DNA of 64,000 nt from Polyangium fumosum (GTDB lineage: Bacteria > Myxococcota_A > Polyangia > Polyangiales > Polyangiaceae), in contig NZ_SSMQ01000068.1 of NCBI RefSeq assembly GCF_005144585.1, positions 1 to 64,000 of the forward strand, in the 5' to 3' direction. The first letter of the stretch is position 1, and each line of letters begins with the position of its first letter. The notes beneath the pieces were generated by a model. That model saw only the letters and a list, made by a program, of their open reading frames with translations. It did not search any database and had not been told where the DNA came from. This document shows positions 1 through 59,442 of the stretch, in pieces. Made by a program: the position numbers and the translations under genes.

Positions 1-108
1 CGCATGCCCGAACTCCTCCTGTGCCCACGCTTCCGCCGACGAGGCCACCTCTGCATCCAACATCTCCCTCGCTAAATGTCGTCAGAGGGGGGGAATGTAC
101 CGATCGGA
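1..108. other. Window edge, no supported gene
   Basis: The first 108 bases hold only short open frames on either strand. None has a recognisable product, ribosome binding site or convincing C-terminal tail, so I cannot say whether a gene ends just outside the window. The dispersed repeat begins right after. Confidence 0.4.
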
Positions 109-126
109 GATGGAACCAATGCTCAG

Positions 127-434
127 GGCACAGCCTGGACCGAGGGTTGAAAAACTGCGCCCCGCGCAGTTTTTCAAACGGGCCTACGAAGAACCCAGGT
201 TGCCAGCAGAACCCGCAGCGCGGCTGTCTCGGTGGGCAACGTCGCTACTGGTCTTGACCGGGCCTGTTCGATGAGCTGCGCCCCGCGCAGATCATCGAGC
301 TTGGGTCCAGCCCCTGGCTGGTCCAGGTGCAGGGGCGGACAGCCCCTGCTGGGGCCTGGGGCAAAGCCCCAGCGAAGCGACTTCATGATGAGACCAATGC
401 TCAGCCCCTGGTCGGGTCCGGGGTGAAACCCCGG
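127..434 (+). repeat. Dispersed hairpin repeat, copy 1 (left end truncated, right end doubled)
   Basis: This is one of four copies in the window of an intergenic repeat. Internal hairpin 1 has perfect arms at 147-160 and 164-177 (TTGAAAAACTGCGC and its complement) around a CCC loop. Hairpin 2 has arms at 268-281 and 285-298 with one mismatch and a CCC loop. The right end (about 299-371) is a GC-rich inverted repeat ending in TGGGGCAAAGCCCCA. A second right-end variant (about 404-434, ending CCGGGGTGAAACCCCGG) follows. The left GC-rich end seen in copies 2 and 4 is missing. A 16/18 direct repeat (109-126 and 387-404) brackets the core. It lies upstream of the desaturase gene. Function is inferred (terminator, REP-like or MITE-like); the structure is seen directly. 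Confidence 0.85.
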
Positions 435-561
435 CGCTGCGCCCGAAAGAGGGGACTCGTGCGGGCCTGCCCGCATTTTCGACGCCCTGGACGGTCCAAA
501 ATGCGCTACACAGTGTCGAACTTTCGACACGTGGGCTGGGCTGCCCGCCGGGTGACTTTTC

Positions 562-38943: not shown

Positions 38944-39798
38944 ATGGGACGAACCATTCGCGGACAAAAGGGGTTTTCTTACACGCACGTCGAGGGCGAG
39001 CAGCCGGTGAACCTGCTCTCCCTCGCGGCCGTCTCCGGGGCGGGCATGTCGCTCGTCGTGCCCGAGATGGTCGGGCGCGCCGGCGGGGACGACACGCCCG
39101 TCTCGTGGAGCTGCCTCGCGCTCGGGCGCGCGCTCGTCGAGCGCGGCAAGGCGAGCCGGCAAGGTGAGCTCGCGGCGCTCCTGCGCAAGCTCGACGGCGA
39201 CTGGATCCGCGTCGACGATCCGCACCACGTCCCGCTCGAATTCGTTCAGGATGCCATGGCCGAGAACGTGGTCGCGATCGTCGAGCGTATCGACGCAGAG
39301 TCCGAGCGGCCGCTCCGGGAGCTCACGCTCGCAGGCAAGTCCGGCCATCACCTGCCGCGGGCCGACTGGCCCAAGATGCTCGCGTTCGTCAACGACGCGC
39401 TCCCGCCCCCGAAGCGGCTCGACATGGGCATGCTGCGGGGGGCGGCGGGGCAGGGCCCGGACGCGCTCGCGCTGCAAGGGGCATCGCTCCGCGGCCATGG
39501 CGATGGGCTCCCGTTCCTGGGCCTCTTGGTCCTCTGCCACGCGGTGGAGCACGATCTCGAGGGCCTGCTCGTGCACGAGGACGAACCCGAGGTCCACGCC
39601 GACGGGTTCTGGGATCTCGCGCTCGCCTGGCACGACTGGCTCGGGGATCCGGCCGGAGGGATGGAGCCCAGCGTCCTTTTCGCGCGCGCGCTCGTCGCCC
39701 ATTTCGCGCGCCGCAAGATCGAGGCGCGCCGCCTGCTCCTGGCCTGCGCGGATGCAGGGGAGCGGCGCGCGACGAGGTATCTCGCGCTCCTGCGGTGA
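38944..39798 (+). CDS. Protein of unknown function
   Basis: The 284-residue cytoplasmic protein starts MGRTIRGQKGFSYTHVEGEQ and is rich in Asp/His (VDDPHHVPLEF, HEDEPEVHADGFWDLALAWHDW). No known motif is recognised. It lies 82 nt downstream of the DedA-like gene on the same strand and ends at the second copy of the dispersed repeat, which probably terminates its transcript. Its composition matches its neighbours. Confidence 0.5.
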   Translation: MGRTIRGQKGFSYTHVEGEQPVNLLSLAAVSGAGMSLVVPEMVGRAGGDDTPVSWSCLALGRALVERGKASRQGELAALLRKLDGDWIRVDDPHHVPLEFVQDAMAENVVAIVERIDAESERPLRELTLAGKSGHHLPRADWPKMLAFVNDALPPPKRLDMGMLRGAAGQGPDALALQGASLRGHGDGLPFLGLLVLCHAVEHDLEGLLVHEDEPEVHADGFWDLALAWHDWLGDPAGGMEPSVLFARALVAHFARRKIEARRLLLACADAGERRATRYLALLR

Positions 39799-39803
39799 GC
39801 CGC

Positions 39804-40107
39804 CGCGCCGGGGCGCTGCCCCGGACCCCGCGGGGGCTGTCCGCCCCTCGACCCGGACCAGGCACGGCCTGGACCGGGGTTTGAACAACTGCGCTTCGCG
39901 CAGTTGTTCAAACGGGCCGACGAAGAAGCCGGGGTGCCAGCCGAACCCGCAGCGCGGCTGTTTTGGTTGACAACGTCGCTGCCGATCTTGACCGGGCCTG
40001 TTCGATGAGCTGCGCGGAGCGCAGTTCATCGAGCTTGGGTCCAGCCCCTGGCTGGTCCAGGTGCAGGGGCGGACAGCCCCTGCTGGGGTCTGGGGCAAAG
40101 CCCCAGC
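39804..40107 (+). repeat. Dispersed hairpin repeat, copy 2 (full length, reference copy)
   Basis: This copy shows the whole layout. The left GC-rich end (about 39806-39875, starting GCCGGGGCGCTGCCCCGG) and the right end (about 40037-40107, ending TGGGGCAAAGCCCCAGC) are imperfect inverted repeats of about 70 bp. Hairpin 1 is at 39881-39894/39898-39911 (loop TTC). Its arms carry TTGAACAACTGCGC instead of TTGAAAAACTGCGC, with the matching change in the other arm. Hairpin 2 is at 40002-40015/40019-40032 (loop GGA, one G-T pair). A core of about 90 bp separates the hairpins. It lies between co-directional genes. Confidence 0.9.
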
Positions 40108-40210: not shown

Positions 40211-41371
40211 ATGCGAGCGTTCTTGCTCGTCCTCGCGATCCTCGTCCTCGGGCCTGCTTGCTCGCGCGAGCGGAAAGGGCCCGCTGAACCGCCGAGACCG
40301 CCGGTCCGCGTGGCATTTTCGGACGTGGCGAACGTGCCTATCGAGCTCTCTGCCATTGGCACGGTCGAACCTTCGGCGCGCGTCTCGTTGCGGCCGCGGG
40401 TGACTGGGCTCGTCACGGCCGTGAAATTCCAGGAGGGCGCGGATGTGGCCGAGGGGGACGTGCTCTTCGTCCTCGACAAGCGGCCGTTCGAGGTCGCCTT
40501 GCGCGAGGCGGAGGCGAACTTGCAGCGGAGCCGGACGCAAGCGGCGAATGCGGCGGCGCAGGCGGATCGATACGAAGAGCTCGCGAGAGAGGGCGTGGCG
40601 AGCCGGCAGGACGCCGAGCTCCGGCGCGCCGAGGCGCGGGCCGCGGCAGCGGCGGTCGACGCGTTTCGCGCGGCCATGGTCGCGCGGCGGCTCGATCTCG
40701 AATACACGACGATTCGTGCCCCCATGGCCGGGCGGACCGGGAGCATCCTCGTGCGCGAGGGCAATCTCGTGCGGGCCAATGAGACGGTGCTCGTCGAGAT
40801 TGTCCGCCTCGCGCCGGCGTTCGTCTCGTTCGCCATTCCCGAGGCGAGCGTGCCGACCTTGCAGCAGGCGATGGCGAATTCCTCCGGGCCGCTGCCCGTC
40901 TCCGCCGCGGCGGCGCCGTCGGGCGACGCGGGGGCCCCGAACCCTGGCGAAGAGGGGACGCTCTCGTTCATCGACAGCACGATCGATCGCGCGACCGGGA
41001 CCTTGCGCCTGCGCGCGACCTTCGAAAATACTTCACGCACCCTCTGGCCGGGGCAATTCGTGCAGGCGACCGTGCGGCTCGGCGTGCGCGAGGGCGCGGT
41101 GGTGATCCCGTCCGAGGCCCTGCAAACCGGGCCGGCGGGTACGTTTGTTTTCGTCGTCGGCGCGGATGAGGCCGCGCAGATGAGGCCCGTGCAGGTGGGG
41201 GAACGCGTGGCCGGCGGGCGGATCCTCGTGCAATCGGGGCTCACGGGCGGCGAGCGCGTCGTCACCGATGGGCAATTGCGCATTCAGCCGGGCGCGAAGG
41301 TGACGATCGTGGGCGAAGGCCCGGGGAGCGCAGCGGGCGCGGCGCCGGCGCCGGGCGTGGAGGCGCGATGA
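40211..41371 (+). CDS. RND efflux periplasmic adaptor (membrane fusion) lipoprotein
   Basis: This 386-residue adaptor has a signal peptide with lipobox LGPAC and a biotinyl-lipoyl-like strand pair (VSLRPRVTGLVTAVKFQEGADVAEGDVLFVLD). An alpha-hairpin follows (AEANLQRSRTQAANAAAQ...ELRRAEARAAAAAV), then the second lipoyl half (TIRAPMAGRTGSILVREGNLV), beta-barrel and membrane-proximal domains. It bridges the inner-membrane pump with an outer-membrane channel. The start ATG at 40211 gives the signal peptide; sequence upstream belongs to the repeat. It overlaps the pump gene by 4 nt (ATGA). No outer-membrane channel gene is adjacent. Confidence 0.92.
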   Translation: MRAFLLVLAILVLGPACSRERKGPAEPPRPPVRVAFSDVANVPIELSAIGTVEPSARVSLRPRVTGLVTAVKFQEGADVAEGDVLFVLDKRPFEVALREAEANLQRSRTQAANAAAQADRYEELAREGVASRQDAELRRAEARAAAAAVDAFRAAMVARRLDLEYTTIRAPMAGRTGSILVREGNLVRANETVLVEIVRLAPAFVSFAIPEASVPTLQQAMANSSGPLPVSAAAAPSGDAGAPNPGEEGTLSFIDSTIDRATGTLRLRATFENTSRTLWPGQFVQATVRLGVREGAVVIPSEALQTGPAGTFVFVVGADEAAQMRPVQVGERVAGGRILVQSGLTGGERVVTDGQLRIQPGAKVTIVGEGPGSAAGAAPAPGVEAR

Positions 41372-44300
41372 ACGTCTCCCGGCCTTTTGTCCTGCGGCCC
41401 GTGATGACCACGCTCTCGATGCTGGCCATCGTGATCTTCGGCATCGCGGGTTTTCGCGCGCTCCCGGTCAGTGATCTGCCGAATGTCGATTTTCCGACCA
41501 TCCAGGTGAGCGCGTCGCTCCCGGGCGCGAGCCCGGAGACGATGGCCGCGGCGGTGGCGACCCCGCTCGAACGGCAGTTCTCGACCATCGCGGGCATCGA
41601 CTCGATGACGTCGACGTCGGGCCTCGGCACCACGCAGATCGTCCTCCAGTTCAACCTCTCGCGCGACATCGACGCGGCGGCGCTCGACGTGCAATCGATG
41701 ATCTCCCGCGCGGCGCGGGATCTGCCGCCCAACATGCCGGCGCCGCCGAGCTTTCAAAAGGTCAACCCGGCGGAGCAGCCCATCATGTACCTCGCGCTGC
41801 ACGCCGAGACGTTGCCCCTGTCGGAGGTCTCCGAATATGCCGAGACCACGATCGCGCAGCGCATCTCGATGATCCGCGGCGTCGCGCAGGTCCTCGTCTA
41901 CGGCTCGCAGAAATACGCCGTGCGCATCCGGCTCGACCCGCAGGCGCTCGCCTCGCGCGAGATTGGCATCGACGAGGTCGCCGCCGCCGTCGCGCGGGAG
42001 AACGTGAATTTGCCGACGGGCGTGCTCGAAGGGCCCGCGCGCACGTACGTGGTGCAGGCGAGCGGCGAGCTCTACCGGGCGAGTGCGTTCCGGCCGATCA
42101 TCGTGGCCTATCGCGAGGGCGCGCCCATCCGACTGGAGGAGCTCGGCACGGTCACGGATAGCGTCGAGAACGATCGGGTCGCGAGCCATTACGACGGCAA
42201 GCGGGCGATCGTCCTCGCGATCCAGCGCCAGCCGGGGACGAACACGGTCGCCGTGGTCGACGCCGTGCGCGCGCTCCTGCCCGCGCTCCGCGCCGAGATC
42301 CCGGCCTCGGTCGAGGTCGCGACCCTTTACGATCGGTCGATCTCGATCCGTGAATCGGTCGCCGACGTCGAGCACACGTTGCTCGTCACGATCGGGCTCG
42401 TCGTGCTGGTCATCGGCATCTTCTTGCGCGACCTGCGCTCCACGATCGTCGCGAGCGTGGCGCTCCCCGTCTCGCTCATCGGCACGTTCGCGGGGATGTG
42501 GGCGCTCGACTACAGCCTCGACAACCTCTCGCTCCTCGCGCTCACCCTTTGTGTCGGGTTCGTCGTGGACGACGCGATCGTCGTCCTGGAGAACATCTTC
42601 CGGCACCTCGAAATGGGGAAACCCCCGCTCAAAGCCGCGCTCGACGGCGCGGGGGAGATCGGCTTCACGGTCGTGTCGATGACGACCTCGCTCGTCGCGG
42701 TGTTCGTGCCCGTGCTTTTTCTCGGCGGGATCGTGGGCCGGCTGCTCCGCGAGTTCGCCGTGACCATGAGCATCGCGATCCTCGTCTCGGGCGTGGTCTC
42801 GTTGTTCCTCACGCCCATGCTGGCGAGCCGGTTCTTGCGGTTGAAGAACGCAAGCGCGCCCGAAACGAAAGACGATCCACACGCAGGCCCGTCGGGGCGC
42901 ATGGATCGCGCATACGCGAAAAGCCTCGGCTTCGTGCTGCGGCACCGGTTCGCGACGCTGATGGCCTCGTTCGTGCTCTTCGCGGGGACGATCGTGCTCG
43001 CGGTGATCGTGCCGAAGGGCCTGTTTCCGAGCGAGGACACGGGGCAGATCTTCGCGCTCACGCGCGCCGCGCAGGGGACGTCGTTCGAGGCGATGCGCGG
43101 CTACCAAGCGGCGGCGGCGGCCATCGTGCGCGCGCATCCGGGCGTTTCGTCGGTGATGTCGAGCTACGGCGCCGGAGGGCCGAGCGGAGCGGGCAACACG
43201 GGCCGGCTCTTCATTCGCTTGAAGGATCGCGACGAGCGCGGCGGCAAGAAACCCGAGGCCATCATCGCCGAGCTACGGCCCGAGCTCGCGAAGATCCCGG
43301 GGCTCGAGGTGTTCCTCCAGAACCCGCCGCCCATTCGCCTCGGCGGCCAGCTCACGCGGTCCCTCTATCAATTCACGTTGACGGGCGCGGACGTGGACGA
43401 GCTCTACGACGCGGCGACGGATCTCGAACAGGCGATGCGCGGGATCCCGGGGCTCATCGACGTGACGAGTGATCTCGAACGAAGGACGCCCGAGGCCACA
43501 CTCGTCATCGATCGGGACCGCGCGGCGACGCTCGGCGTGTCGGCGCAGAGCATCGAGGAGGCGCTCTTCTCGGCGTATGCAGGCAGGCAGGTCTCGACGA
43601 TTTACGCGCCGACGAACCAGTATCGCGTGATCCTGGAGCTCGATCGGCGCTTCACGCAGGATCCGAGCGCGCTCGGGCTCCTGTACGTGCGCTCGACCAG
43701 CGGCGAGCTCGTGCCGCTCGCGGCCGTCTCGCGGACGGAGGAGGGCGCAGGCCCGCTCAGCGTCAATCACCTCGGGCAATTGCCTTCGGTGACGATCTCC
43801 TTCAACCTCGCCCCGGGCGCGCCGCTCGGCGAGGCGGTCGCGCGCGTGTCGGCGCTCGCGCGGGAGCGATTGCCGGACACCCTCGGGACGCAGTTCCTCG
43901 GCAGCGCCCAGGTCTTCCGGGAATCGGTCGGCAACCTGGGGATGTTGCTCCTGCTCGCGATTCTGGTGATCTACGTGGTGCTCGGGATCCTCTACGAGAG
44001 CTTCGTCCACCCGATCACGATCCTCTCGGGGTTGCCCTCGGCGGGGTTCGGGGCGCTGCTCGCGCTGCTCGTCCTCGGCCAGGAGCTCAACGTGTATTCG
44101 TTCGTCGGGATCCTCTTGCTCGTGGGGATCGTCAAAAAGAACGCCATCATGATGATCGATTTCGCCCTGGAGGCGGAGCGGCGCGACGGAAAGCCCGCGG
44201 CGGAGGCGATCGTGCTCGGGGCGCGCATTCGTTTCCGGCCGATCATGATGACCACGATGGCGGCGCTCGCAGGCAGCTTGCCAATCGCGCTCGGGTTCGG

Positions 44301-44469
44301 CGCGGGCGCCGAGTCACGGCGGCCGCTCGGCATTGCAGTCGTCGGCGGGCTCGTGGTGTCGCAGCTCCTCACGCTCTACATCACGCCGGTGATTTACACG
44401 TACCTCGACGCGGCCGAGAAGCGAGCACGCGAGGCGCTCGCCGAGCGGCGGGCGCGGCGGCTCGCGTGA
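41368..44469 (+). CDS. RND efflux pump inner-membrane transporter (AcrB/MdtB type)
   Basis: The 1033-residue protein has the usual HAE1-type RND length and layout: RPVMTTLSMLAIVIFG first helix, large periplasmic loops (from about 35 and 560), and the TM4 segment LTLCVGFVVDDAIVVLENIFRHLE, where the adjacent Asp pair sits in the proton pathway. Repeat-half signatures include GIVKKNAIMMIDFALEAER and GARIRFRPIMMTTMAALAGSLPIAL. It exports drugs or other amphiphiles using the proton gradient, together with the adaptor encoded just before it. The substrate is not predictable. Confidence 0.95.
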   Translation: MNVSRPFVLRPVMTTLSMLAIVIFGIAGFRALPVSDLPNVDFPTIQVSASLPGASPETMAAAVATPLERQFSTIAGIDSMTSTSGLGTTQIVLQFNLSRDIDAAALDVQSMISRAARDLPPNMPAPPSFQKVNPAEQPIMYLALHAETLPLSEVSEYAETTIAQRISMIRGVAQVLVYGSQKYAVRIRLDPQALASREIGIDEVAAAVARENVNLPTGVLEGPARTYVVQASGELYRASAFRPIIVAYREGAPIRLEELGTVTDSVENDRVASHYDGKRAIVLAIQRQPGTNTVAVVDAVRALLPALRAEIPASVEVATLYDRSISIRESVADVEHTLLVTIGLVVLVIGIFLRDLRSTIVASVALPVSLIGTFAGMWALDYSLDNLSLLALTLCVGFVVDDAIVVLENIFRHLEMGKPPLKAALDGAGEIGFTVVSMTTSLVAVFVPVLFLGGIVGRLLREFAVTMSIAILVSGVVSLFLTPMLASRFLRLKNASAPETKDDPHAGPSGRMDRAYAKSLGFVLRHRFATLMASFVLFAGTIVLAVIVPKGLFPSEDTGQIFALTRAAQGTSFEAMRGYQAAAAAIVRAHPGVSSVMSSYGAGGPSGAGNTGRLFIRLKDRDERGGKKPEAIIAELRPELAKIPGLEVFLQNPPPIRLGGQLTRSLYQFTLTGADVDELYDAATDLEQAMRGIPGLIDVTSDLERRTPEATLVIDRDRAATLGVSAQSIEEALFSAYAGRQVSTIYAPTNQYRVILELDRRFTQDPSALGLLYVRSTSGELVPLAAVSRTEEGAGPLSVNHLGQLPSVTISFNLAPGAPLGEAVARVSALARERLPDTLGTQFLGSAQVFRESVGNLGMLLLLAILVIYVVLGILYESFVHPITILSGLPSAGFGALLALLVLGQELNVYSFVGILLLVGIVKKNAIMMIDFALEAERRDGKPAAEAIVLGARIRFRPIMMTTMAALAGSLPIALGFGAGAESRRPLGIAVVGGLVVSQLLTLYITPVIYTYLDAAEKRAREALAERRARRLA

Positions 44470-44478
44470 GGCCGATTC

Positions 44479-44627
44479 GCTGGGGCGTTGCCCCAGGCCC
44501 CAGCAGGGGCTGTCCGCCCCTGCACCCGGACCAGCCAGGGGCTGGACCCAAGCTCGATGAACTGCGCAATGCGCAGTTCATCGAACAGGCCCGGTCAAGA
44601 CCGGCAGCGGCGTTGCCCACCAAGGCC
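44479..44627 (-). repeat. Dispersed hairpin repeat, copy 3 (half element, inverted)
   Basis: This copy contains only the right half in reverse orientation: the GC-rich end (44479-44550, starting GCTGGGGCGTTGCCCC), then hairpin 2 with perfect 14-bp arms at 44554-44567/44571-44584 and an AAT loop, then about 40 bp of the core. Hairpin 1 and the left end are absent. It fills the space between the convergent pump and C39/HExxH genes, where a bidirectional terminator would be expected. Confidence 0.85.
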
Positions 44628-44647
44628 GTCGCGCTTCCGCGCCCGCC

Positions 44648-46129
44648 TCACGGGAACGAGAGACCGAGCACGTAGGTCTCCCAGCGCTTCTTGAAGGCCG
44701 CCATGTCCTCCTCGCCGAGCACGCGGCGGAGGGTGTCGTAGCCCGTCGGGTCCTTCTCGCGGTTCGCGTGGAACTCGTGGTAATACCGGACGAGCAGGCC
44801 CTTCTCCTGGAGGTAATACAAGAGGTAACGCGAGGCGGCGTAATGAACGCCGTAATCACCCTCGTAAAACGCCTCGTCGTTCATCCCGGTGAGCGCGCGG
44901 AACGAGGGGACGCGGTTCTCCGCGATCGCTGATTGCAGGCCGCGCAGGCGCCAGTTCGTGTAGCCGTGGATCCGGCCGTCCTCCTCGCCGCTCTGCTCGT
45001 AGAGCGAGCCGAGGCCCTCGTTGAACCAGGGCGGGCAATCGGAAAAATTCGCCTCGACGAACGGGTGCACGATCTCGTGCACGAGCGTGCCGCCGCCGGT
45101 CGCGATGTTCATGACGAGCGCGCCATGCTTCGAGGTGTAATACCCGTACGGCGTGGTCGGCCTCTCGCCGAAGAGCGTGATCGCGTTCCGCTCGTAGCTC
45201 GGTCGGTCCTTGAAGAGCCAGACGACGAGGATCCGCGACGGGTCCTTGGCGAAATAGTCTTTCTTGAGTTTTTCGGTCGCCCAGCGGACGGTGCCCTCGG
45301 CGCCCTTGCGCACACGGGCCTCGGGGCCGTCGCCGACGACGACGAACGGAGGCTCGACGAGGACGGTGAAGTCGCCACGCAGGCGCGCGGTCTTCGCCTT
45401 GACCTCCATCACCTTTTGCGCGTAATCGGCCGGGGAGAACCCGGGCTTGCTTGGCGTCGCCTTGGCGAGCTCGAGATCCCGCGGGGCGAGGCGCAGCCGG
45501 ATCGCGGTCCACGCGTCCTTGCTGGATTTGAGCGGCCAGAGCGAGAGGAAGCGCGCCCGCGACATGCGGAGGTAGCCGCCCGCGTCCTTGGCGGGCTCGT
45601 GATAGATGATCTCGTCCCGCGAAGCGTCGTAGCCGACGACGAGGCGGAAATGCTCCGTGGTCGTGGGGCTCTCGTCGTAATGCATGCAGACGATCGAGGG
45701 GATGCCCTTCTGCAGATCGGCATGGAGCGCGGCGAGCTCGGCCCCGAGCGCCTCGTCGGCCTTCACGACGTCGATGCGGTACCAGACGGGTCCCGGGTCG
45801 AAGCCGACGGCCTCGACGGCCCGCTTGAGCTCGGCGGTGTACGCGCCGCGGCCGAGCGCCGGATCGAGGCCGGTCCTCGCGAAGATCTCGTCCTGATCGA
45901 GCGGGCGGCCGAGCCGCGCGAGCGCCATGGCGACACAAGCCTCGCCGCAAAAATCGGGCTTTTGTCGTACGTGCGGGATGCCTTCGAGGAGGACACTCGC
46001 GAGGTCTACACGAGCGAGGCCAAGCGGAGCCGGAGAGGCGACCTGCTCGGGCGGCGGAGGCGAGGAGCTGCGGCTACAGGCGAGGAGGAGGAGCGGGGCG
46101 AGGACGGCGAGGAGGCGAGCAGAGGGCAT
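44648..46129 (-). CDS. Lipoprotein with C39-like and HExxH metallopeptidase domains
   Basis: The 493-residue lipoprotein (lipobox LLAC, start ATG 46129) has two protease-like halves. The N-terminal half resembles papain-fold peptidase C39: VRQKPDFCGEACVAM with Q56 and C61, then EHFRLVVGYD with H160 and IIYHEP. The C-terminal half is a gluzincin-like domain: TLVHEIVHPFVE (H351, E352, H355), followed by WFNEGLGSLYEQ, where E371 would be the third zinc ligand. Both sets of active residues appear intact. The location should be periplasmic or outer-membrane-anchored. The VOC gene lies 52 nt upstream in the same direction. The substrate is unknown. Confidence 0.8.
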   Translation of the reverse strand: MPSARLLAVLAPLLLLACSRSSSPPPPEQVASPAPLGLARVDLASVLLEGIPHVRQKPDFCGEACVAMALARLGRPLDQDEIFARTGLDPALGRGAYTAELKRAVEAVGFDPGPVWYRIDVVKADEALGAELAALHADLQKGIPSIVCMHYDESPTTTEHFRLVVGYDASRDEIIYHEPAKDAGGYLRMSRARFLSLWPLKSSKDAWTAIRLRLAPRDLELAKATPSKPGFSPADYAQKVMEVKAKTARLRGDFTVLVEPPFVVVGDGPEARVRKGAEGTVRWATEKLKKDYFAKDPSRILVVWLFKDRPSYERNAITLFGERPTTPYGYYTSKHGALVMNIATGGGTLVHEIVHPFVEANFSDCPPWFNEGLGSLYEQSGEEDGRIHGYTNWRLRGLQSAIAENRVPSFRALTGMNDEAFYEGDYGVHYAASRYLLYYLQEKGLLVRYYHEFHANREKDPTGYDTLRRVLGEEDMAAFKKRWETYVLGLSFP

Positions 46130-54885: not shown

Positions 54886-56042
54886 GCAACGGGATGATCA
54901 CGCGCCTGATCTCGGCTTCGGCCGTCGCTTTTGCGCTCTCTGCCGGCGCCGCCGTCGCAGAGGCCGCGGTGCCGCAGACCATCACCCAGCAGGGCCGGCT
55001 CTACGACGAAAAGAATGCCCCGGTGAATGGCACGCTCCAGGTGACGTTCGCGCTCTACGCCGATCCCGCGGCGGCCGATCCGATCTGGACCGAGTCGCAC
55101 GACATCACGTTCGAGGAGGGGTACTTCTCGGCGAACCTCGGGACGGTCACGGCCTTCGACAAGAACGTCTTCGACGGCTCGGTGCGGTATCTCGGCATCA
55201 AGGTCGGTAGCGATCCCGAGATGACGCCGCGATCCCCCGTGCAAAGCGTGCCCTACGCGATGGTCGCGGGGGACGCGATCGGCGACATTCATCCGACGTC
55301 GGTCTGGGTCGGCGACACCCTCGTGATCGACAGCACGGGCAAGTGGGTCGGGGATCCGACGGGGCTCATGGGTCCCATGGGGCCGCAAGGTCCCGTGGGT
55401 CCGACGGGCGCGGCCGGTGCCAAGGGCGCGACGGGCGCGACGGGCGCGACGGGCGCGACCGGTCCGCAGGGTCCGAAGGGCGAGACGGGCGCTACGGGCG
55501 CGAAAGGCGCGACGGGCGCGACGGGCGCGACGGGCGCGACTGGTCCGCAGGGTCCGAAGGGCGAGACGGGCGCGACCGGTCCGCAGGGTCCGAAGGGCGA
55601 GACGGGCGGGATCGGTCCGCAGGGTCCGAAGGGCGAGACGGGCGTCGTATCGGTCCGGAGCCTCGATGCGCCGGGCATTTCCGTGAACGGGAGCTCGCTC
55701 GTGTTCGCGTGGGCGGCGACGCCGGTGAGCGTGAACGTCGTCGCGGCCGGGCAACGGATCACGGGCTCGGCGGTGGCCATCCTCGGGTCGAGCTCGGGGA
55801 CGGCCACGTCGGTCGGCTTTGGCCTCTGTTACCAGGCCTCCGGAGGTCAGATCATCCCGTTCTACCCGACCTCGTACACGACCACGGCGAGCATCTCGGC
55901 GCGCGCTCCGTTCGCCGCCGCCGGCACGGTGTCGGGCCTCGCGGTAGGGACGTACAGCGTCGGGTTCTGCGTGCGGAACGTCTCCGCGATCTCGCTGAAC
56001 TCGAACGACGCGATCAACGGCTGGGTCATGGTGACCAACTGA
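54882..56042 (+). CDS. Exported collagen-like protein
   Basis: The 386-residue product has a signal peptide (to about AEAA), then an N-terminal domain beginning [20 protein letters not shown] and ending [13 protein letters not shown], common at the head of bacterial extracellular fibre proteins. About 32 uninterrupted Gly-X-Y triplets follow ([12 protein letters not shown]), and then a C-terminal beta-rich domain with two cysteines. Such proteins form trimeric triple helices on the cell surface; there is no vertebrate-like hydroxylation. It is translationally coupled to the lipoprotein upstream. The triplet DNA is internally repetitive (55364-55650) and may vary in length. Confidence 0.85.
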
Positions 56043-56064: not shown

Positions 56065-57333
56065 GTGTCCATCCTCTCGATCCTCGTAGACACGGTCACG
56101 CGCGCGGCGCACGCGTTCGCCCTCGCGATCGCGCCGCCGCTCTTCGCGCCCGAGCCCGGCTCCGGTTCGATCGGGGGCGCCCTCGTCGCGGCCGTGGTGC
56201 TCGCGGCCGTGGTGCTCGGCGCGCTTCGCCTCGCCGCCCGCGTCCGCTCGCCCGAAGCGAGGATCGCCGCGGTCGCGCTCGTCCTCTCGGTTGTCGCGTC
56301 CCTCGTCGTCGGCGCGTACTTCCGCGGCCCTCGCGCGCCGCTCGGCCGCGGCGTGCTCTTCGTCGCCGTGCCCCTGTGGGCGGGGCTCGCCGCGTGCGCG
56401 GGGATCGTGGCTCCGCGCAGGAACGCGCGGCTCGTCGCGTCCGCCGTCGTGGCCCTCGGCCTCGTGCTCTTCGGCGCGTCGGCCGAGTGGCTCTTTTCGA
56501 CGCCGCAGATGTGGTGGCAGACCGTGCTCCGCGACGGCGACGCGCGGCGCGCCCTCGACGTGATCACCGAGCCCCAGGCGCGGGCGCGGGATCACGCGGC
56601 TGCGCTCGCCGTCGTCGATCGGTGTCTCACGCTGAAGCCCGCGAGCTGCGCCTGCGCCTCGCGCCGTGCGTTCGTCGTGCTTCACCTCCGGGACATGCCG
56701 CGCGCGCTCGAAGCCGCGCAGGACGCCGCGGGCAGGTGCCCGGCCGATGCGCTCGCGCAGGCCGCGCTCGCCGCCACGCTCGCCACGAACGGCGAGGGGA
56801 AGCGGGCCGAGGAGGTCGCGCGCGCGGCGCTCGTGGACGCGCGCGAGCCGCTGCTCGACTACGGGCTCGCGCTGGCGCTCGATCAGCAAGGTCGGACGGC
56901 GGAGGCGGTCGCGTCCGCTCGGCGGGCGTTCGAGGGAGGGGCCGGTCGTGACGCGGCCGTCCTGCTCGGCGCGCTGCTCATCCGCGAGAACGATCTCGAC
57001 GGCGCGGAGAAGGTCCTCGCGCCGATCCCGAAGGAAGCCCCGAACGACGCGGAGGCGCTCTTCGACCTGGGGATCATCGCGGACAAGAAGAACGATTACA
57101 ACCGTGCCCGGGAGCGTTACCTCGCCGCGCTACGCGCCGATCCGGGCCTGACGGCTGCGCGCCGGAACCTCGCGCTGTTGACGCTGCGGTTTGGGATCTT
57201 CGAGGAAGCGAAGCACCATGCGCGCAAGCTCGTCGAGGCCACGCCTGGGGACGCGCGGAGCGTGGATCTCTTGCACCGCATCGAGCTCGCCGCCCTCGAA
57301 CGAGCCGCGCGGTCTCCCACGCCCGCGCCCTGA
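56065..57333 (+). CDS. Membrane protein with periplasmic TPR repeats
   Basis: This 422-residue protein starts at GTG. Several hydrophobic segments occupy the first 150 residues, followed by about 250 residues of TPR-like helices (AALAVVDRCLTLKPASCAC, ADALAQAALAATLATNG, AEALFDLGIIADKKNDYNRA). It may be an assembly or scaffold protein of the envelope; no enzyme motif is seen. It ends before the fourth repeat copy. The start is uncertain, as no ribosome binding site is visible. Confidence 0.65.
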   Translation: MSILSILVDTVTRAAHAFALAIAPPLFAPEPGSGSIGGALVAAVVLAAVVLGALRLAARVRSPEARIAAVALVLSVVASLVVGAYFRGPRAPLGRGVLFVAVPLWAGLAACAGIVAPRRNARLVASAVVALGLVLFGASAEWLFSTPQMWWQTVLRDGDARRALDVITEPQARARDHAAALAVVDRCLTLKPASCACASRRAFVVLHLRDMPRALEAAQDAAGRCPADALAQAALAATLATNGEGKRAEEVARAALVDAREPLLDYGLALALDQQGRTAEAVASARRAFEGGAGRDAAVLLGALLIRENDLDGAEKVLAPIPKEAPNDAEALFDLGIIADKKNDYNRARERYLAALRADPGLTAARRNLALLTLRFGIFEEAKHHARKLVEATPGDARSVDLLHRIELAALERAARSPTPAP

Positions 57334-57371: not shown

Positions 57372-57681
57372 GCCGTGCCGGGGCTCTGCCCCGGACCCCG
57401 CGGGGGGCTGTCCGCCCCCTCGACCCCGGACCAGGCACAGCCTGGACCGAGGGTTGAAAAACTGCGCTCCGCGCAGTTTTTCAAACAGGCCGACGAAGAA
57501 GCCAGGTTGCCAGCAGAACCCGCAGCGCGGCTGTCTTGGTTGGCGACGCCGTTGCCGGTCTTGACCGGGCCTGTTCGATGAACTGCGCGGAGCGCGGTTC
57601 ATCGAGCCTGGGTCCAGCCCCTGGCTGGTCCGGGTCCAGGGGTGGACAACCCCTGGTCGGGGTCCGGGGTAAAACCCCGGT
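57372..57681 (+). repeat. Dispersed hairpin repeat, copy 4 (full length, variant right end)
   Basis: The left GC-rich end starts GCCGGGGCTCTGCCCCGG. Hairpin 1 has perfect arms at 57454-57467/57471-57484 (loop TCC). Hairpin 2 is at 57575-57588/57592-57605 (loop GGA, one mismatch of G-T type). The right end ends CCGGGGTAAAACCCCGG, like the second right end of copy 1. It fills the gap between the convergent TPR and arrestin-like genes. Confidence 0.9.
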
Positions 57682-57687
57682 TCTCCC

Positions 57688-59442
57688 TCAGCGATAGGGC
57701 CCGAGGCTCGTCGCGCCCGCGAGCGCGGCGACCGCGGCGGCGAACGCGTCGGCCGTGGCGAGCATCTCCTCGGGGTCCTGCACGAGCGGCAAACGAACGC
57801 CGAGGCGTGTCTCTTCGAGCAGGGGCTCGCGCCCCGTGGCTTTGGTGAGCGTCGCGCTCCACGAGGCTGGAAGCTCGCGCTCGGGCCGCGGCGACCAGAG
57901 CCGGCTCTCGGCTGGGCGCTCGCCCTCCCAGCGGTGATCGAGCGACAGGGGGATCCCTGCGCGGGAGAAGTTTTCCACCGCGAGATCGCCGACCCGGAGG
58001 CGCGCGCCGCGCTGCGCGGCGAAGTGCTGGAAGGCGGGCAGGGCCGGCGCGAGCGCGGCGGGCGGGGGCAACGTGGCGATCGCGATCGCGAGGCGGTGCG
58101 CGAGCAACTGGGCACGCGCGAGGAAGCGCTCGAGGCCTGCGACCTGGTAGACGCCGCCTTTCTGCACGACCACCGTGTGTTCGTCGTCGAGGGCGGCCTC
58201 GTCGAAGACGTCGAGGGCCTCGTGCACCTCGGCGCTGAGCAGGCGGGCGGCCTGGACGGCCTCGCGCGCCCGCACCGTGAAGCGCTTCGCGAGGCGTTTG
58301 TCCAGGCCGGGCAGCTTTGCGCCGAAATCGGTCCAGCGCCGTTCGGCGAGGCGCAGATCGAGGCCGAGGGCGGGGAACGAGAGCTCGGCGACGACGCACG
58401 GGCCGAGGCCCTCGCGATGCTCTTCGGTCACCTCGATGCGGATGCCTCGTACGTCGAGGACGAGCACGGCCTGCTCGGGATCGAAGTCGACGACCGTGGC
58501 CCCGGCGGCGCGGATGGCCTCGGCGGCTGCGCGCCAGACGGAGAGGTGACGTTGTTTGCCGACGAGCGGCAGGCCTTTTGCGGGCTTGCGTAGGCCTTTC
58601 TGGCGCTCGACGGCGACGGGCACGCGCAGGGAGAGATCACGGCCGAAGGCCACGACGGCGACGACCTCGAGCGCGTAGTCGACGCGGATGAACGGGGAGT
58701 GAAAGGTCGGCACGAGCTCGGCGGGGATGCCGATGCGGAAGGGGATCGAGGTGCCTTCCTCGGGCGTGCCTTCGAAGAGGGTCCACGTGCGTCGGTCGAC
58801 CTCGGCGGGGCCGGCGGTGCTCGTCACGAGCGCGGTCTCGATCGCGCTCGTGGCGAGCTCGATGCGCCGGAGCTTGCGATCGCCGAGGCCCGTCAGCGCG
58901 ATGGCGCCCGTGAGGCTGCCGTGGACGGGGAGGCGTTGATCTTCGAGGGAGAGCTCGATCACGGGGTCTTCGCCGCGGTGTTCGCCGGCCTGGCTCGTGA
59001 ACACGCGCGGCTCGGGGGGCGCGGCCCGCGTGGTCGGCACGCGGATCGGGATGACGTACGTTTCGTGGCGATCGGGCCACCACGGGATGTGCACGTGGAC
59101 GGAGATCTCGTACTCGATCGTGCTGTATCCGCTGCGGTAGGTGGGCGGGAGGCCGTGCGGGAGGGGGAAATCGATCGCCTGGTCCAAGGTCCCCGGCTGG
59201 AGGACGCCTGCGGGAAAACGCTTCCCGAGCCGCACGATCTCGCGGCGATGGTATCTGCGGGTGCGGGTCTTGCCGCTGGAGGACGTGCGTTTGTAGCGCG
59301 ACTCGCGGCCCACGAGCTCGACGTCGATCGCGTCGAAGGGCGTCTCGGTCTTGGATTTCAGGTGGACGTGAACGCGGAGCGTGTCGCCGGCGGTCGGCTC
59401 GGCGGGGTCGAGGTACACGGTGACGTCGGGGCGGCTGCGCAT
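57688..59442 (-). CDS. Arrestin-like domain protein
   Basis: The first 290 residues of this 584-residue protein look like the two beta-sandwich halves of an arrestin fold. They show VTVYLDPAEPTAGDTLRVHV, DFPLPHGLPPTYRSGYSTIE followed by YEISVHVHIPW, GSLTGAIALTGLGDRKLRRI, SIPFRIGIPAELVPTFHSPF and IRVDYALEVVA. The remainder (300-584) is an alpha/beta region of unknown type. No signal peptide is present. Bacterial arrestin-like proteins (Spo0M type and others) are known but poorly understood. The closest functional analogue cannot be named. Confidence 0.7.
   Translation of the reverse strand: MRSRPDVTVYLDPAEPTAGDTLRVHVHLKSKTETPFDAIDVELVGRESRYKRTSSSGKTRTRRYHRREIVRLGKRFPAGVLQPGTLDQAIDFPLPHGLPPTYRSGYSTIEYEISVHVHIPWWPDRHETYVIPIRVPTTRAAPPEPRVFTSQAGEHRGEDPVIELSLEDQRLPVHGSLTGAIALTGLGDRKLRRIELATSAIETALVTSTAGPAEVDRRTWTLFEGTPEEGTSIPFRIGIPAELVPTFHSPFIRVDYALEVVAVVAFGRDLSLRVPVAVERQKGLRKPAKGLPLVGKQRHLSVWRAAAEAIRAAGATVVDFDPEQAVLVLDVRGIRIEVTEEHREGLGPCVVAELSFPALGLDLRLAERRWTDFGAKLPGLDKRLAKRFTVRAREAVQAARLLSAEVHEALDVFDEAALDDEHTVVVQKGGVYQVAGLERFLARAQLLAHRLAIAIATLPPPAALAPALPAFQHFAAQRGARLRVGDLAVENFSRAGIPLSLDHRWEGERPAESRLWSPRPERELPASWSATLTKATGREPLLEETRLGVRLPLVQDPEEMLATADAFAAAVAALAGATSLGPYR

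Follow-up and report, generated by a model that had tools for sequence, protein, structure and literature searches.

The dispersed repeat found at four places in the window (the whole 64,000-nucleotide stretch of Polyangium fumosum DNA analysed here) is, with a probability that we put at about 0.8, a MITE family of Polyangium. It would be mobilised in trans by a Tn5-like IS of the IS4 family that has the same 18-bp ends, and its core is a putative terminator or insulator. The terminal inverted repeats (TIRs) that it has in common with the IS, the target duplications and the empty sites in sister species indicate that the repeat is a MITE. An earlier sequence-only reading overlooked that it is a transposable element. 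Below, the genome from which the window comes is denoted G000 and the other searched Polyangium genomes G001 to G005.

All four copies that the sequence-only reading had listed are present in the window, one of them an inverted half (Table 1). Over 249 nt, identity to copy 1 is 90% for copy 2 and 86% for copy 3. The limits it gave hold for the core; the element itself extends beyond the core to an 18-bp TIR, as on the right of copy 1. Copy 1 had been placed at 127-434; its core lies at 127-373 and is cut at the left by an IS. Copy 1 is apparently itself inserted into another copy of the repeat, whose remnant was recognised by eye. The inverted halves that had been described in each full copy are 76% complementary over 100 nt in copy 2, with 76 nt between them, and the internal stems are real according to the fold of this copy. 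Elsewhere in the window, at 55330-55653, a 9-bp periodic repeat array lies inside an ORF that has collagen-like motifs (13 protein letters, not shown).

Table 1. Features of the repeat and of the IS in the window
Feature	Position	Strand	Remarks
IS end (Tn5-like), TIR at 109-126	1-126	-	Inserted in copy 1 stem-loop; the subterminal part of the IS is followed by GGCACAGCC from the repeat stem-loop
Copy 1 core, left end lost to the IS	127-373	+	
18-bp TIR of copy 1	387-404	-	
Terminal hairpin remnant, resembles the end of another repeat copy	405-443	+	By eye
Copy 2, core without recognised TIRs	39804-40107	+	Between two + genes; starts 5 bp past the stop codon ending at 39798
Left terminal hairpin S1L of copy 2, CCGGGGC-GCT-GCCCCGG	39808-39824	+	
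Stem-loop S3L of copy 2, GGACCAGGC-ACG-GCCTGGACC	39855-39875	+	One A-A mismatch; favoured IS landing site
Hairpin H1 of copy 2	39880-39912	+	Triloop TTC
Hairpin H2 of copy 2	40001-40033	+	Triloop GGA
Stem-loop S3R of copy 2	40038-40058	+	One T-T mismatch
Right terminal hairpin S1R of copy 2, CTGGGGC-AAA-GCCCCAG	40090-40106	+	
Half copy	44479-44635	-	Convergent called genes 41368-44469 (+) and 44648-45928 (-) on either side
Copy 3	57374-57680	+	Convergent called genes 56065-57333 (+) and 57688-59442 (-) on either side

Some copies are bounded outside the core by CTGAGCATKGGTCTCATC and its complement, which form the 18-bp TIR. The same ends, one of them with two differences, are found on a 1504-bp IS in G004, where three copies are 3-5 bases apart, and MITE forms with this TIR were also found. 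The 475-aa protein of the IS contains the Tn5 transposase domains PF14706, PF01609 and PF02281, belongs to NCBIfam NF033590 (IS4 family) and matches the Tn5 transposase 1mus with a phmmer E of 2e-36. Judged by these predicted domains, the IS is a Tn5/IS50-like member of the IS4 family. At E 1e-30, transposase matches occur at four places in G004 (100%) and one in G002 (84%) and are partial in G000, G001 and G005; G003, in which the repeat is present, has no match at this threshold. Several G000 contigs begin or stop within the IS, and its copies in this genome have therefore probably collapsed in the assembly. Among 128 copies selected independently of the TIR, a minority of the ends (57/256, at most four edits) carry the TIR that the repeat shares with the autonomous IS, and a further 10 carry its inner part alone. 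At some TIR-bearing ends (L098 and L102) the TIR itself provides the called stop codon, through its TGA. Inserted in a repeat stem-loop is a 2090-bp element (L083:1038-3127) that has these TIRs, is flanked by a 9-bp duplication and carries, in place of the transposase, a 537-aa ORF without a Pfam match.

Target-site duplications flank 13 of 21 TIR pairs, compared with 4 of 420 controls with mismatched flanks (lengths of 8-10 allowed). Twelve are of 9 bp (eight exact, four with one mismatch) and one is of 10 bp. The 21 pairs come from MITEs, from copies of the IS and from a single longer passenger element, two of the pairs (L004) share one end, and they represent the loci examined, not whole genomes. 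By eye, no target duplication was found at the TIR-less copies at 39804 and 57372. The duplications tend to be palindromic, with a mean score of 7.2 of 15 at their centres and 4.3 at other centres, although palindromy is low (at most 6 of 15) in 6 of the 13 and 12% of the control centres reach 7. At one TIR site (L075), which is empty in G004, the sequence of that genome is a clean hairpin, CCTCTCTCCC-GCGA-GGGAGAGGGG. The IS itself lands mostly in the repeat: 22 of 26 IS ends lie inside it and four elsewhere, counted over the loci examined rather than whole genomes, with three IS copies contributing both ends and two of the 22 (L044 and L170) at loci retrieved on account of the repeat. Eighteen of the 22 are in the GGTCCAG..CTGGACC stem-loop, as identified by pattern, and four are, by eye, in other hairpins of the repeat. 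The IS end that interrupts copy 1 is the example in the window.

The position of the repeat relative to genes was assessed on 138 full copies from six genomes, which remained after 61 partial matches had been excluded from 199 distinct matches. For 134 of them both neighbouring genes are available, and these are convergent in 74 cases, tandem in 48 and divergent in 12; the other four copies are at locus edges. The distribution differs (Fisher p 6e-15) from that in a 388-kb sample taken along the G004 chromosome, in which the 285 gene pairs comprise 49 convergent, 188 tandem and 48 divergent. Element-free pairs at the same loci (n=224) are 26 convergent, 144 tandem and 54 divergent. Where a side of the repeat faces a gene 3' end, the distance is at most 60 bp in 170 of 196 cases; for sides facing a 5' end, this holds in 15 of 72. 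The repeat thus shows, on these gene calls, a strong preference for the first few tens of bases past stop codons, most of all where genes converge. Convergent genes in the G004 sample are separated by a median of 16 bp, so many copies occupy very tight spacers. The claim that the repeat is intergenic was borne out as essentially extragenic: overlaps with called genes are at most 60 bp in all 138 full copies, where genes were called by a codon-usage script and not a standard caller, such that an intragenic insertion yields two called genes. One copy (L102) breaks a frame that by eye is open in G004 and G002, yet is called as lying between two genes.

This position raises the question of transcription termination. 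Hairpins rich in G+C lie directly after genes, and they may help to stop transcription there. The stems of copy 2, the copy searched, are not followed by a U-tract; the single match is at the centre of the element, with 0.3 expected. Copy 2 is therefore not a canonical intrinsic terminator, and termination is a likely role that we infer.

Comparison of sister species suggested that the sites change rapidly. At site 39804, the element is absent from G001, G002, G003 and G005, and G004 has other sequence. At site 57372, the spacer is short and empty in G001, G002 and G004, and G000, G003 and G005 carry, near stop codons, subtypes unlike one another. Fourteen further G000 sites, seven with TIRs at both ends (TIR/TIR) and seven TIR-less, were compared with G004 and G002. 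At the TIR/TIR sites, G004 lacks the core in 7/7, and these empty sites attest to mobility, although three of them (L022, L065 and L100) are not cleanly empty but contain other sequence, which at L065 includes related hairpins. G002 has partial cores near two of the seven (L075 and L022). At the TIR-less sites, the core is present in G004 at three of the six with an ortholog and in G002 at 5/7. In the seven scored filled comparisons, the best match of a copy within its own genome (86-97%) exceeds its identity to its G000 counterpart at that site (82-91%), a comparison of the best of several copies with a single copy in which some matches cover half the core. In two of the seven, the orientation is opposite to that of the G000 copy. 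Gene ends thus look like hot spots with fast turnover, which could proceed by repeated insertion or by conversion.

These data also bear on the idea that the TIR-less core is a mobile unit in its own right, reaching gene 3' ends by an unspecified route, and that the IS captured it secondarily to give the TIR-bearing forms. Most ends are without a TIR, and the TIR-less site 57372 is empty in three genomes and differently filled in the other three. TIR-less copies are as close to their nearest same-genome relatives (median identity 92-95%) as TIR/TIR copies are, except in G000, where the TIR/TIR copies are closer (97%). Against this, several TIR-less ends carry, by eye, apparent degenerate remnants of the TIR; TIR-less ends have no conserved terminal motif past the ~12 subterminal bases, and a candidate enzyme was not found. 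We consider an independent core unlikely as the general explanation, and it is compatible with the TIR-bearing copies being MITEs.

The sequence-only reading had suggested selection on structure, as DNA cruciform or RNA, and a structured or cis-regulatory RNA under selection is one alternative to the MITE. The repeat is certainly structured: copy 2 folds with far lower energy than 100 shuffles of it (z -12.6 on the + strand and -14.8 on the - strand). Variation of the triloops, which it had also pointed out, extends to 17 kinds in H1 and 12 in H2 among 137 copies. The double change of A to C and T to G that it had noticed in hairpin 1 of copy 2 is present, and copy 2 is the sole C-G among the 137, with A-T in 68 and G-C in 68. 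Covariation was analysed in 45 of the 138 full copies (copies longer than 318 nt and 'W' copies were ineligible and L008 was left out), with the structure taken from copy 2, in which two of the 62 pairs never form. The stem cells of the alignment are paired in 92.5% of cases, compared with at most 42.7% for slid partners. Eleven of the 62 pairs changed on both sides, compared with 6.1 in shuffles (0/500 reach 11) and at most three for slid partners, and 65 cells show two-sided changes, compared with 20.7 in shuffles (0/500 reach 65); related sequences can beat such shuffles without constraint. Further pair types number 15, which is close to the 13.2 in shuffles and was reached by 64 of 500. 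Compensatory change is thus confirmed, but selection on structure is not established, since one-sided changes, the expected intermediates, are found in only 10 cells. The covariation fits selection, and it is equally well accounted for by subfamily founders or arm-templated correction. Departures of the G-U and A-C type do not point to a consistent strand (five A-C and no G-U in S1L, 16 G-U and no A-C in H2), which counts against an RNA; this test covered the stems other than S3, which were counted in the covariation analysis only. Rfam has no match in the window at the gathering score and nothing credible at relaxed thresholds, and orthologous sites differ in presence or absence of the repeat. 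Despite its stable fold and covariation, a selected RNA is thus a very unlikely explanation of the repeat.

Full-length copies are present in all six searched Polyangium genomes. In G000, 40 places were scored among 348 candidates, two of them truncated by contig ends. A search of 183 genomes of the order, with four candidates scored per genome, gave full-length matches in the six Polyangium genomes only; one further genome has a 55-bp match (E 1e-8). Of 53 genomes from other genera, each with at most 12 candidates scored, four gave short matches (E 0.001). A pattern scan across named genomes matched 17 stretches, every one from Polyangium. In G004, a palindromic stem pattern (at most one mismatch) has 253 forward matches compared with eight in the reversed control. 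Most of our copies are top BLAST matches to the window copy, a choice that under-represents divergent and truncated ones. On the 13.24-Mb contig G004:C1, 38 of the 39 strict right-half matches are at 2.86-7.92 Mb and one is at 9.18 Mb, and copies therefore cluster in one part of the chromosome. With regard to a replication terminus there, no dnaA was seen by eye among the 10 called genes of the first 12 kb, and the GC skew is irregular across 20 samples. By eye, four long variants in G004 (L038, L040, L041 and L042) have several hundred bases in place of the repeat centre; in three of them this stretch includes tandem repeats, for example CGTACCTCCAAGGCACGGCCT.

The repeat resembles several known systems. 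REP, BIME and REPIN elements, associated with RAYT, are likewise inverted pairs of palindromes in extragenic positions. A Y1 (IS200/RAYT-type) transposase gene, the sole match in G000, lies just outside the window (G000:C165:65272-65628). Mobilisation of a REP/BIME-type repeat by a RAYT (Y1/HUH) transposase would agree with the inverted, paired, intergenic palindromic units, their many copies and this gene 1.3 kb past the window. However, the Y1 transposase has no match in G002, G003 and G004, three of the six genomes with the repeat, and the TIRs and target duplications are of the DDE type. RAYT was rejected as the mobiliser on these grounds, and such an origin is extremely unlikely.

Similarities to described MITEs are closer. 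QMITE2 of Coxiella burnetii, according to a review, is a short non-coding MITE with TIRs and target duplications, receives insertions of an IS (IS1111), and illustrates that truncated, TIR-less copies of bacterial MITEs resemble REPs (PMC10969869). In Polyangium, the candidate mobilising IS is Tn5-like, and it has the TIRs in common with the element as well as inserting into it. Another IS4-family member, ISRm22 of Sinorhizobium meliloti, has copies in palindromic extragenic repeats, nine according to the text and 10/10 according to the table, and the REPs are frequent between convergent genes; in the sections of that report available to us they are not described as bearing IS ends, unlike the Polyangium repeat (PMC1525189). 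SPRITE of Streptococcus pneumoniae is MITE-like, enriched between convergent genes and near gene 3' ends, and its co-option as a terminator was suggested; it differs in being AT-rich with a uridine-rich tract, and, in the excerpts from its report, its target duplication could not be established and a mobilising IS is not named (PMC3049150). In the open-licence literature, we found no description that combines these features in one element-and-transposase pair.

In the MITE mechanism that we propose, the transposase would favour G+C-rich hairpins, transcription terminators among them. Once inserted, the hairpins of the core could serve as a bidirectional terminator or insulator and be tolerated or kept, while the TIRs would decay. 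Either selection or conversion between arms and copies, or the two together, may maintain pairing in the stems. More tentatively, and with some doubt, the Tn5-like transposase and the MITE could constitute a self-nesting system that repeatedly replaces transcription terminators. A hairpin-seeking transposase would then deliver a set of hairpins that serves at once as a further terminator and as the next landing site, and gene 3' ends would be re-equipped repeatedly. The same gene end carries differing subfamilies in sister species, at times in opposite orientation.

Our analysis provides an account of an abundant structured repeat of Polyangium genomes. It presents a natural case in which hairpin targeting by a transposase, gene termination and the evolution of repeats may be coupled. 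For palindromic repeats, compensatory changes need not imply a functional RNA.
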